DNA from: Cellulomonas edaphi
GTDB lineage: Bacteria > Actinomycetota > Actinomycetes > Actinomycetales > Cellulomonadaceae
Direction: 5' to 3'
NCBI RefSeq assembly: GCF_030362815.1
Contig: NZ_JAUCGR010000001.1
Span: forward strand, 550,024 to 614,023
DNA: 64,000 nucleotides
A model generated the notes under the pieces. It made no database searches and was not told where the DNA came from. It saw only the letters and a program-made list of their open reading frames with translations. A program made the position numbers and the translations under genes. Below are positions 3,385 to 7,154 of the stretch, piece after piece; position 1 is the first letter of the stretch; the number at the start of each line of letters is the position of its first letter.

Positions 3385-5703
3385 TCAGAGCGTGGCGCGC
3401 ACGGTCCGGGTCGCGGCGAGGATCCGCTCGAGCGAGGGTGTGACCTCCTCGTAGCGACGGGTCTTGAGGCCGCAGTCCGGGTTGACCCACAGCTGGTCGA
3501 CCGCGATGGCCTTGACGGCGTCGGACAGCAGCTCGGTGACCTCGGCCTCGGAGGGCACGCGGGGCGAGTGGATGTCGTACACGCCGGGACCGACCGCGCG
3601 CGGGTAGCCCGCGGCGGCGATGTCGCCGAGGATCTCCATCTTGGAGCGGGCGGCCTCGATGGAGGTGACGTCGGCGTCCAGGCCGTCGATCGCGCCCATG
3701 ATCTGGCCGAACTCCGAGTAGCACAGGTGCGTGTGGATCTGGGTGTCCTCGCGCACGCCGGCCGTCGAGAGCCGGAACGAGCGGACCGACCAGTCGAGGT
3801 AGGCGGCGTGGTCCTCGGCGCGCAGGGGCAGCAGCTCGCGCAGCGCGGGCTCGTCCACCTGGATGATCGCGATCCCGGCGGCCTCGAGGTCTGCGATCTC
3901 GTCGCGCAGCGCCAGCCCCACCTGGTTGGCGGTGTCGCCCAGCGGCTGGTCGTCGCGGACGAACGACCAGGCCAGGATCGTCACCGGGCCGGTGAGCATG
4001 CCCTTCATGTGCTTCTTCGTCAGCGACTGCGCGTACTGCGCCCAGGCCACCGTGATGGGGGCCGGGCGGGACACGTCGCCCCACAGGATCGAGGGACGGG
4101 TGCAGCGCGAGCCGTACGACTGCACCCAGCCGTTCTCCGTGACCGCGAAGCCGTCGAGGTTCTCGGCGAAGTACTGCACCATGTCGTTGCGCTCGGGCTC
4201 GCCGTGCACCAGCACGTCAAGGCCGATGCGCTCCTGCAGCTCGACGACGCGGGCGATCTCCGCCTTCATCTCGTCCTCGTACTGCGCGGCGGTGAGCTCA
4301 CCCTTGACGAAGGCGGCACGCGCCTTGCGGATCTCGGGCGTCTGCGGGAACGAGCCGATCGTCGTCGTGGGCAGCGGCGGGAGGTCGAGACGGTCCGCCT
4401 GAGCCTTCTTGCGCGTCTCGAAGTCGCCGCGGTTGAACGCGTCCTCGGTGAGCGCGGCGACGCGCTCACGCACTTCGGGGCGCACCACGCCGGGGGCGGT
4501 CTTGCGGCTGTTGACGGCGTCCGACGCCTCGAGCAGCTGCTCGTGGATGGCCTCACGGCCCTCCGTCAGGCCCTCCGCCAGCACGACGACCTCGCGGACC
4601 TTCTCGTCCGCGAAGGCGAGCCACGTCTTCAGCGTCGCGTCCAGGTTCGGCTCGTCCGCGGTGGTGTGCGGGACGTGGAACAGGCTCGTCGAGGTGCCCA
4701 CCGTGACGGCCGCGGCCCCCAGGTTCTCGAGGCGCTCGAGGATCGCCAGCTTCGCGTCCAGGTCCGCACGCCAGATGTTGTGGCCGTCGATCACGCCGGC
4801 GACCAGAGTCTTGGTCTCCAGGCCGGGAACCGCCTCGGCGGGCACGTCGCCGCGCACCAGGTCGATGCCGATCGCCTCGACGTCCGTGGCCGCCAGCACG
4901 GGCAGCGCCGCACCGAGGTCGCCGTAGGGCGCTGCGACGAAGATGGCGGGGCGCGTCTCGGCGGCGGTCAGCGTGCCGTAGGCCTCGACGACGGCGGCCA
5001 GCAGGCGCTCGGCCGGGACCTCGATGGAGTCGGAGACCAGCGCGGGCTCCTCGAGCTGCACCCAGGTGGCGCCGGCGGCGGCCAGCTCGGAGAGCAGCTG
5101 GACGTAGACGGGCAGGATGTCCTGCAGGCGGTCGATGGGCGCGAAGTCCTCGGGCGAGCCCTCGGTCGCCTTCGCCAGGGCCAGGTAGGTCACGGGGCCG
5201 ACGACGACGGGGCGCGTGACGACACCGTCGGCGAGGGCCTCGGCGAACTCGCGCACGGGGCGGTCGCTCGAGTAGCTGAACACCGTCTCCGGGCCGATCT
5301 CCGGCACCAGGTAGTGGTAGTTGGTGTCGAACCACTTGGTCATCTCGAGCGGCAGGTCGTCGCCCCGGCCGCGAGCCACGGTGGAGTAGCCCGCCAGGTC
5401 CAGGCCACCGTCGGTCACGAGGTCGGCGAAGCGCGCGGGGATCGCGCCCACGACGGCGGTCGCGTCGAGCACGTGGTCGTAGAACGAGAACGCGCTGGGG
5501 ATCGCGGGCACGTCGGTGGGCAGGCCCAGACCGGCGAGGTGGGTGCGCGTGCGGCGGCGCAGGTCGGCAGCGGTGGCCTCGACCTCGTCGGCCGTCGTCT
5601 TGCCGGCCCAGAAGGCCTCGATGGCCTTCTTGAGCTCGCGACGCGGCCCGATGCGCGGGTAGCCGAGGACGGAGCCGGCCGGGAACTGGGGGACGTTGCT
5701 CAT
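3385..5703 (-). CDS. metE: Cobalamin-independent methionine synthase
   Basis: 772 residues, the full length of MetE (5-methyltetrahydropteroyltriglutamate-homocysteine methyltransferase), which makes the last step of methionine synthesis without B12. Both halves are present: the N-terminal barrel starts at VLGYPRIGPRRELKKAIE, and the C-terminal catalytic barrel at PPLPTTTIGSFPQTPEIRKAR. Zinc ligands are visible as His and Cys in THLCYSEF, Glu in SIEAARSKME and Cys in VNPDCGLKTR. The ATG lies 4 bases after the metF stop, so the two genes form one operon under the SAM riboswitch upstream of metF. Confidence 0.97.
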   Translation of the reverse strand: MSNVPQFPAGSVLGYPRIGPRRELKKAIEAFWAGKTTADEVEATAADLRRRTRTHLAGLGLPTDVPAIPSAFSFYDHVLDATAVVGAIPARFADLVTDGGLDLAGYSTVARGRGDDLPLEMTKWFDTNYHYLVPEIGPETVFSYSSDRPVREFAEALADGVVTRPVVVGPVTYLALAKATEGSPEDFAPIDRLQDILPVYVQLLSELAAAGATWVQLEEPALVSDSIEVPAERLLAAVVEAYGTLTAAETRPAIFVAAPYGDLGAALPVLAATDVEAIGIDLVRGDVPAEAVPGLETKTLVAGVIDGHNIWRADLDAKLAILERLENLGAAAVTVGTSTSLFHVPHTTADEPNLDATLKTWLAFADEKVREVVVLAEGLTEGREAIHEQLLEASDAVNSRKTAPGVVRPEVRERVAALTEDAFNRGDFETRKKAQADRLDLPPLPTTTIGSFPQTPEIRKARAAFVKGELTAAQYEDEMKAEIARVVELQERIGLDVLVHGEPERNDMVQYFAENLDGFAVTENGWVQSYGSRCTRPSILWGDVSRPAPITVAWAQYAQSLTKKHMKGMLTGPVTILAWSFVRDDQPLGDTANQVGLALRDEIADLEAAGIAIIQVDEPALRELLPLRAEDHAAYLDWSVRSFRLSTAGVREDTQIHTHLCYSEFGQIMGAIDGLDADVTSIEAARSKMEILGDIAAAGYPRAVGPGVYDIHSPRVPSEAEVTELLSDAVKAIAVDQLWVNPDCGLKTRRYEEVTPSLERILAATRTVRATL

Positions 5704-5707
5704 GGGA

Positions 5708-6736
5708 TCAGCCTTCGGGGGTAGTCGGTGTTGCGTGCGTGGGTGCTGAGTCGGTGGCGCTGCGGGACGAGCCCGTCAGCTGCGCGCCCTCGAGCAGGTC
5801 GAGTGCGGCGTGGTGCTTGTTGAACGTGTAGAGGTGGACGCCCGGGGCGCCGCCGTCGAGGACGCCGTTGATCAGGTCCACCCCGGCGCGGATGCCGCGG
5901 CGGTGCCGGTCCAGGTCGTCGTCGGCGTTGCCCAGCAGATCGAGCAACGACGACGGCACCGGGACGCCCGAGAGCTCCTGCACGCGCAGCAGCCGGGCCG
6001 GGTCCGTGGCCGGGATGATGCCCGGGATGATCGGGATGACCACGCCCGCCTCGCGCGCCTCGGCGACGAGGCCCAGGTAGGCGTCGGCCTCGTAGAACAC
6101 CTGCGTGATGGCGAAGTCGGCGCCCGCCTCCTGCTTCGCGAGCAGCGAGGCGACGTCCTGCGCGCGCGTGCCACCGGTCGCGGCGTTCCCGCGCGGGAAG
6201 GCGGCCACGGCGATCGACAAGGGGCGCACGCGGGCGCGGACCGCCTGCGAGGGGCTGGCGATGCAGCGCTGCGACTCGATCTCCCGCAGCAGCTCGACGA
6301 GCTCACCCGCGGTGTCCACGCCGTCGGGGTGCGGGCGCCAGTCGGGCTGACCCACCGGTGGGTCCCCGCGCAGCGCCAGGAACGAGCGCACGCCCTCGTC
6401 GAGGAACTCCTCGACGATCGTCGTGATCTCCGCGCGGCTGGTGCCCACGCACGTCAGGTGCGCGATCGGGTTGAGGGCCGTCTCACGCAGCAGCTGCGTC
6501 ACGAGCGTCCGGCTCGTCTCGCGCGTCTTGCCCGAGGCGCCGTAGGTCACCGACACGAAGTCCGGTCGGACGTCCTCGATCGCGCGGATGGTCTCCCAGA
6601 GGCGCGGCGCGGCATGCGGGTTGCGCGGGGGGAACAGCTCGAACGAGACGGTCGGCCGGTCCACGGATGCCAGGGGGCGCCGCTCGGGCGCGGCGTGCGT
6701 GCCCGGGGTACGCGGTTCCACGGTCGCGGCGCTCAC
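5708..6736 (-). CDS. metF: 5,10-methylenetetrahydrofolate reductase
   Basis: 342 residues. It supplies the 5-methyl-THF used by MetE, encoded directly downstream. The TIM barrel begins at RPTVSFELFPPRN (catalytic Glu in SFELFPP), and substrate and FAD residues appear in HLTCVGTSRAE, FLALRGDPP and DFAITQVFYEADAY. I place the start at GTG 6736. The longer open frame reaching 6811 would run through the riboswitch aptamer, and the GTG overlaps the TGA of a 14-codon leader ORF (GTGA), which suggests translational coupling. The first ~25 residues are poorly conserved, so the exact start remains a judgement. Confidence 0.93.
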   Translation of the reverse strand: MSAATVEPRTPGTHAAPERRPLASVDRPTVSFELFPPRNPHAAPRLWETIRAIEDVRPDFVSVTYGASGKTRETSRTLVTQLLRETALNPIAHLTCVGTSRAEITTIVEEFLDEGVRSFLALRGDPPVGQPDWRPHPDGVDTAGELVELLREIESQRCIASPSQAVRARVRPLSIAVAAFPRGNAATGGTRAQDVASLLAKQEAGADFAITQVFYEADAYLGLVAEAREAGVVIPIIPGIIPATDPARLLRVQELSGVPVPSSLLDLLGNADDDLDRHRRGIRAGVDLINGVLDGGAPGVHLYTFNKHHAALDLLEGAQLTGSSRSATDSAPTHATPTTPEG

Positions 6737-6777
6737 GCGGGCGACCGGAGGATGCTCAGACGCGAGGTCTGCGACAT
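6733..6777 (-). CDS. 14-residue leader peptide before metF
   Basis: Short ORF reading MSQTSRLSILRSPA. Its ATG sits six bases after GGAG (6784-6787), the only good ribosome site in the region. Its TGA overlaps the GTG start of metF. The ribosome site lies partly in the 3' strand of riboswitch helix P1. The most economical reading is that ribosomes load on this ORF and re-initiate on metF. The peptide has no methionine run, so its sequence need not matter. Too short to be certain it is translated. Confidence 0.55.
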   Translation of the reverse strand: MSQTSRLSILRSPA

Positions 6778-6783
6778 GGTTCA

Positions 6784-6876
6784 CTCCATCGGTCCTGGCG
6801 GAAGCACCCACACCCTCGTCGCGAAGGGGGTTGCTGCGGCGTCAATGAGCCAGGTCTCTCGGCCGCTCTGGATGGT
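6784..6876 (-). promoter_or_regulatory. S-box (SAM-I type) riboswitch
   Basis: The minus strand shows the S-box core in order: P1 5' strand CCATC (6875-6871), AGAGcGG then GAGaGA, GGCtc, tGACGCCgCaGCAACC with the invariant GCAACC, a variable stem (CCCC...GGGTG), GGTGCTtcc, and P1 3' strand GATGG (6790-6786), which pairs fully with CCATC. Binding of S-adenosylmethionine should stabilise P1. The ribosome site GGAG (6787-6784) overlaps the P1 3' strand, so control is likely at translation initiation. No terminator hairpin is seen between the aptamer and the leader ORF. A SAM-IV variant of the same core cannot be excluded by eye. Confidence 0.9.
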
Positions 6877-6883
6877 TGGCTGC

Positions 6884-6913
6884 AGAGTAGCCACGCTCTC
6901 GCATCGTGGGCAA
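6884..6913 (-). promoter_or_regulatory. Promoter of the metF-metE operon
   Basis: On the minus strand TTGCCC (6913-6908), an 18-base spacer and TACTCT (6889-6884). Transcription would begin near 6877, immediately before the first base of riboswitch helix P1. The close fit to the aptamer boundary is the main support. Confidence 0.6.
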
Positions 6914-7154
6914 GGTTTCCCACAGCGTGAGACGGTTTCGTTCGGCCATCGGCGAGCGGGCGTCGTCGGCGCGATCTGCGCGCCCGCGCGCTCGTCCGGC
7001 ACGGGCCACGCTGCCACAGATCGGCGCGATGGTCACCGTGCACGGGGCGATCTGGGCGGCTGTCGCGGACTCCGCCCACGAGGGCTGTGCGGTCGTCAGG
7101 TCTGCTCTTGCCAGGCTGGCGCTCGTCCCGCCGGGCGGTCGTCGGGCGCGGTCG
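6914..7154. other. Intergenic stretch without recognised gene
   Basis: About 240 bases between the metF promoter and the next minus-strand gene. Open frames here are short or are shadows of GC-rich composition. No hairpin, repeat or promoter stood out. Confidence 0.5.

Follow-up and report, generated by a model that had tools for sequence, protein, structure and literature searches.

The window, a 64-kb stretch of DNA, carries metF and metE next to each other on the minus strand, on which all features described here lie. metF (5708–6736) encodes a methylenetetrahydrofolate reductase of 342 amino acids when read from its GTG (Pfam MTHFR, PF02219, E = 7.8e-70). It is followed after 4 nt by metE (3385–5703), which encodes a cobalamin-independent methionine synthase with Meth_synt_2 and Meth_synt_1 domains (Pfam). 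The MetF protein is 88 and 90% identical to those of the nearest named relatives, Cellulomonas sp. PhB150 and C. rhizosphaerae, respectively. Upstream of metF, cmscan with Rfam detected a SAM-I (S-box) riboswitch aptamer (RF00162, 6783–6878, E = 1.7e-8). The match spans the full-length core (model positions 1–108) and scored 50.0 bits, above the curated gathering score of 44.4 bits; it was the only Rfam match at gathering thresholds in the entire window. The complete S-box core recognized in the original prediction is thus confirmed, and the coordinates given there for the P1 pairing and the mini-ORF proved correct. P1 consists of five pairs between CCATC (6871–6875) and GATGG (6786–6790). A Shine-Dalgarno (SD) sequence, GGAG (6784–6787), overlaps the 3' strand of P1 as proposed, but only its GG, two of the four SD bases, lies within the stem. 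Six nucleotides behind the SD, an ATG (6777–6775) opens a 14-codon upstream ORF (uORF), MSQTSRLSILRSPA (6733–6777), whose TGA (6735–6733) overlaps the metF GTG (6736–6734) to form a GTGA stop/start junction (6733–6736).

SAM-I aptamers are widespread in the genus, as 79 of 81 genomes gave a match at E of 0.001 or better. Our genus sample consisted of 148 matches among those listed plus the two of the window genome itself, and metF lies behind the aptamer in 78 of these 150 loci, of which two (L068 and L077) come from one incomplete genome. Throughout the 78 loci, CCATC occupies the same place and GATGGAG is followed by ATG. Because P1 is invariant across the genus, it provides no covariation. 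One narrow search pattern matched 3 of 396 genomes and is too narrow to inform on spread.

The aptamer is preceded by a −35-like element, TTGCCC (6908–6913), and, after an 18-nt spacer, by a −10-like element, TACTCT (6884–6889). The latter is conserved: TANNNT was found 22–5 nt ahead of CCATC in 78/78 genus loci, compared with a mean of 6.3 and a maximum of 15 in shuffled sequences, starting at −14 in 58 loci, at −15 in 15 and at −13 in 5. TTG[AC] was present 38 nt before CCATC in 32 of the 78. The position of TANNNT just ahead of CCATC suggests that the transcript probably starts at the aptamer edge, near 6877. The promoter proposed for this place was recovered by its conservation but not by its consensus, since a strict sigma-70 scan of 6600–7100 identified no promoter. 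No terminator-like site was detected in 6600–7100, and in all 78 loci the stretch from GATGG to the conserved MetF core was free of T runs of length four or more. These data agree with the earlier view that the common terminator mechanism is not used here. An SD that overlaps the 3' strand of P1, with no terminator, is the arrangement of direct translation attenuation, and it is shared by all 78 loci.

The ATG behind GATGGAG is used in two ways. In 51 of the 78 genus loci, it opens a uORF of 10–34 codons at the place homologous to that in the window and out of the metF frame; in the other 27, metF itself starts directly at this ATG. All 51 uORFs read in the metF+1 frame and end in RTGA at the metF start (27 GTGA and 24 ATGA), and the sequence past the overlap is invariably RTGAGC or RTGACC. 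The same two layouts, and no other, were found in 53 outgroup loci, where 24 have a uORF, all ending in RTGA, and 29 have metF directly (23 and 26, respectively, in 49 loci without duplicates). Named genera with a uORF include Cellulosimicrobium, Luteimicrobium, Kineococcus and Occultella. For the outgroup, 67 loci were sampled among the matches listed, 40 of them hand-picked; 39 had metF and 37 had the aptamer before metF (not L184 and L185). Scanning L254–L297 (44 of 80 named loci) for the aptamer gave 16 matches, of which 14 were counted and two (L256 and L275), being Cellulomonas, were left out. Two loci with a metF match came from a further 26 among the matches listed, resulting in a total of 37 + 14 + 2 = 53. 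At least four of these are duplicates by identical start (L254/L153, L255/L181, L259/L172 and L265/L201), which leaves 49.

As a control, we located the first stop in the uORF frame after the metF start. This stop was RTGA in 24 of 50 direct loci, at a median of 59 codons, compared with 64 of 64 uORF loci. RTGA is partly favoured because the second codon of metF often begins with A (34 of the 50 direct loci), and the uORF loci share ancestry, so that the RTGA counts are not independent. Judged by these comparisons, the mini-ORF together with its RTGA coupling is in excess of chance. In a rapidly built MetF tree with 114 rows, which carries a long-branch warning, the fewest layout changes in either direction were nine, at least five of them forced by starred branches; in the genus tree alone, the fewest were five, with one forced. 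The changes may be losses or gains of the uORF. The original prediction had also held that relatives keeping the aptamer with metF directly on the GGAG site would speak against it, and part of the relatives do show this layout: metF starts directly in 27 of the 78 loci of the genus and in 29 of the 53 from the outgroup, while 51 of the 78 have the uORF with RTGA. These direct loci suggest that the leader ORF is a bridge that can be dispensed with. On this comparative evidence, control is anchored at the constant SD in P1, and the uORF appears as a recurrent, dispensable bridge to metF. The uORF groups showed in general no excess of third-position or synonymous change, and thus no sign of selection on the uORF peptide, the sequence of which is probably unimportant. 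In three direct loci of one genus (g5; L190, L198 and L215), the start lies 18–19 nt behind the P1 strand, and metF there is probably not on the P1-overlapping SD. In L200, GATGGAG is changed to GATGGAC before a four-codon uORF (MEAS) with an ATGA overlap, and GGAGG within this uORF is placed where it could serve metF.

The distribution of SD sequences indicates how ribosomes may reach metF. Of 64 uORF loci, 63 (all but L200) have an SD-like 4-mer ahead of the uORF start, and 8 have one 4–16 nt before metF, compared with 4.6 expected from shuffles (51 of the 64 are from the genus and 13 from the outgroup; the count leaves out the truncated locus L034 and 11 further uORF loci of the outgroup). 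In the window, no SD-like 4-mer precedes the metF GTG. The presence of an SD at the uORF and its scarcity at metF suggest that the uORF is most likely the path by which ribosomes arrive at metF, and re-initiation at RTGA would be the likeliest route. From this layout, we infer that transcription starts at the aptamer edge and that binding of SAM would close P1, hold the GG of the SD and prevent initiation at the adjacent ATG. When SAM is absent, the SD would be free and the 14-codon uORF translated; ribosomes would then terminate at its TGA and, within the same GTGA, restart on the metF GTG, which itself has no SD. metE, located after metF, would be carried on the same transcript. We consider a translational SAM-I OFF switch with a uORF relay to metF a likely reading of the locus, and an RNA switch of the SAM-sensing class probably controls metF through a tiny ORF in Cellulomonas and in related bacteria. 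The earlier proposal that SAM hides the SD of the mini-ORF and that metF follows by re-initiation is partly supported, by the invariant P1/SD in 78/78 loci, by the constant RTGA and by the scarcity of metF SDs, but not by ligand-free folding (see below).

Other routes to metF were weighed against this relay. metF could be initiated upstream in its own frame, for example at GTG 6784–6782 or at a codon within the aptamer, and the mini-ORF would then be an accidental reading of the MetF N-terminus. Indeed, 48 of the 51 uORF loci have an open metF frame ahead of GATGG, which probably reflects the high GC content of the DNA. However, this frame is closed between GATGG and RTGA in three of the 51 (L021, L053 and L102), the GTG at 6784 is absent in close relatives such as L054 and L086, and RTGAGC or RTGACC is kept in all 51 while the flanks differ (by eye), which together make an upstream start quite improbable. 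A frameshift at the end of the uORF, yielding a uORF–MetF fusion instead of re-initiation, seems very unlikely to us. Direct loci do tolerate other N-terminal extensions of MetF, and PMC11260477 reports a minor uPPE2–PPE2 fusion product; in that paper, however, the main route to PPE2 is re-initiation.

The leader might instead act mainly on transcription, through Rho-dependent termination when the uORF is untranslated, with the effect on initiation being secondary. For M. tuberculosis, PMC11260477 suggests that Rho is probably responsible for the loss of metE mRNA. Neither 6600–7100 nor, with respect to T runs, the 78 genus loci display signs of an intrinsic terminator, and dependence on the same SD would remain even if Rho were involved; we regard this explanation as unlikely.

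Folding calculations, which take account of neither SAM nor the tertiary core, did not reproduce the switch. Without ligand, P1 was not favoured, with a mean pair probability of 0.14 over the 78 loci and of 0.0004 in the window. The openness of GGAG was 0.40 in the free ensemble vs 0.36 with P1 forced (78 loci), and 0.31 vs 0.33 in the window, whose leader folded no better than shuffled sequences (z = 0.38). Ligand-free folding thus appears to count against a simple thermodynamic reading and lends the switch no support.

Pairing between the P3 loop and the start region was considered as an additional element. In the window, GCGAC and GUCGC can pair, yet the 78 genus loci were no better than partner-swapped ones, and this candidate was rejected: the longest P3-loop complements averaged 4.63 nt, compared with 4.36 (maximum 4.64) for shuffled and 4.69 for partner-swapped sequences. 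The metF aptamers of 17 loci in sister genera have GGAAGCCTCC in their P3 loop (L163, L166, L174, L175, L181, L186–L188, L193, L196, L200, L201, L203, L209, L210, L213 and L217). All 17 have at least 5 nt of GGAGGCTTCC in the 30 nt behind GATGGAG, as do 3 of 20 other outgroup loci and 2 of the 78 genus loci, and 30 outgroup aptamers not associated with metF all lacked the GGAAGCCTCC loop. In these sister genera, base pairing between the P3 loop and the start region could provide an extra platform; the loci share ancestry, and partner swaps among the 17 are equally good. Separately, CAGAC...GTCTG just within the uORF (6757–6771) could form a 5-bp hairpin that is kept in close relatives, with the loop varying from CTCGC in the window to CTCGT, CCTGT and CCAGT in relatives. 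Codon 6 of the uORF is NGT, with C, T or G as its first base, in nine sequences (the window and close relatives).

The genus uORFs are rich in cysteine codons. Cys occurs in 44 of the 51, compared with a mean of 15.7 and a maximum of 26 in shuffled sequences, and their codons include 66 for Cys (23.8 expected) and none for Trp (14.4 expected). Cys was found in the first 20 residues of 2 of 27 direct MetF proteins and in 9 of 24 outgroup uORFs. Across much of the genus, this uORF might act in series with the SAM switch as a second sensor, with its Cys codons tying metF re-initiation to charged cysteine tRNA; if so, expression of metF would require both low SAM and a supply of cysteine, which donates the sulfur. 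The window would not fit this pattern, as its uORF has no Cys and reads CGT where close relatives have TGT. Alternatively, the codons may be relics of start codons, since G before a Cys codon makes GTG in the metF frame: 46 of the 66 Cys codons are preceded by G, compared with G at 345 of 992 third positions overall. The absence of GTGG at these places speaks against the relic alternative. Support for cysteine sensing, which we consider rather unlikely, is weakened by common descent and by the way TGY overlaps a GTG of the metF frame.

The individual parts of the proposed relay are known. Capture of the SD by P1 has been described for SAM-I switches (PMC2258182), and base stems of riboswitches in Actinobacteria overlap the initiation site (PMC1262725), according to the portions available. 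The present locus resembles the direct translation attenuation of these accounts in that the ribosome site lies on P1's 3' side and no additional platform is present. It differs in the out-of-frame uORF between switch and gene, of which the accessible portions of the two sources make no mention for those SAM-I switches. For the B12 switch of M. tuberculosis ppe2, a riboswitch–uORF–re-initiation relay has been demonstrated (PMC11260477, excerpts). There, too, the riboswitch hides the SD of a short uORF (uPPE2), the stop and start overlap (AUGA in ppe2) and the main gene has no obvious SD, and each of these elements has a counterpart in the layout reported here, where P1 would hide the SD. ppe2 is made mainly by termination–re-initiation, the route that we propose for metF. 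The ppe2 switch differs in its regulated gene, in its aptamer, which is of B12 class IIb, and in having an anti-TIR element apart from it, whereas here the P1 of a SAM-I aptamer itself includes part of the SD. The met operon of Xanthomonas, as presented in the available text of PMC7270179, likewise combines a SAM-I aptamer with methionine genes and mainly translational control, but its switch works through an anti-SD sequence and detects initiator tRNA in its uncharged form; the terms 'leader peptide' and 'upstream open reading' do not occur in that text. Among the open-licence PMC papers listed in our searches, none described a SAM-I riboswitch that acts on metF by way of a uORF, and none dealt with SAM riboswitches in Cellulomonas. 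If the relay is correct, a mechanism shown for a B12 switch would extend to the SAM-I class. The loci also constitute a natural experiment, with one aptamer and SD that face metF directly in some species and through a uORF in others. As the layout changed at least five times on well-supported branches (fewest nine), what the uORF adds to a riboswitch could be tested. Annotation of metF starts and of very short ORFs downstream of riboswitches in actinobacteria calls for caution.

Comparison of uORFs with the N-termini of neighbours points to how the bridge may have arisen. In sister genera, direct MetF begins with MVAEAS (g21) and the uORF with MVAEAF or MVHEAS (g8); within g25, direct MetF begins with MAAS and the uORF with MEAS. 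These resemblances suggest that an old MetF N-terminus became a uORF after a change of frame, with a new metF start at RTGA. A frame change in the stretch from the constant SD to metF would create a uORF bridge.

The window genome contains a second SAM-I aptamer, before rhodanese-like and sulfhydrylase-like genes (assigned by eye from translation). Among the matches listed, 67 of the 72 non-metF genus loci have the aptamer before a gene that encodes a YAGD motif and looks rhodanese-like (by eye); L042 and L131 were without the core by the pattern used. In L002, a sulfhydrylase-like frame lies behind the YAGD-motif gene (by eye). At 16 of the 72 loci, an ORF of 65–69 amino acids ending in RTGA is situated between the switch and the rhodanese-like gene; that of L007 is a DUF1737 protein (PF08410), and YRLLTGPDD is common to it and the others (by eye). 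Compared with L007, L038 and L039, the DUF1737-like ORF seems to be reduced to uORF stubs of 8–19 codons in L043, L024 and L065, and the stub of L043 resembles both ends of the DUF1737-like gene. Stubs that keep RTGA suggest that a first cistron driven by a riboswitch can be reduced to a uORF without loss of the overlap. At another locus, L087, a SAM-I aptamer is followed by a short ORF with CCRC and further Cys (VVVRDVLNPCCRCLRQDLHVC...), before an OsmC-like frame (by eye).
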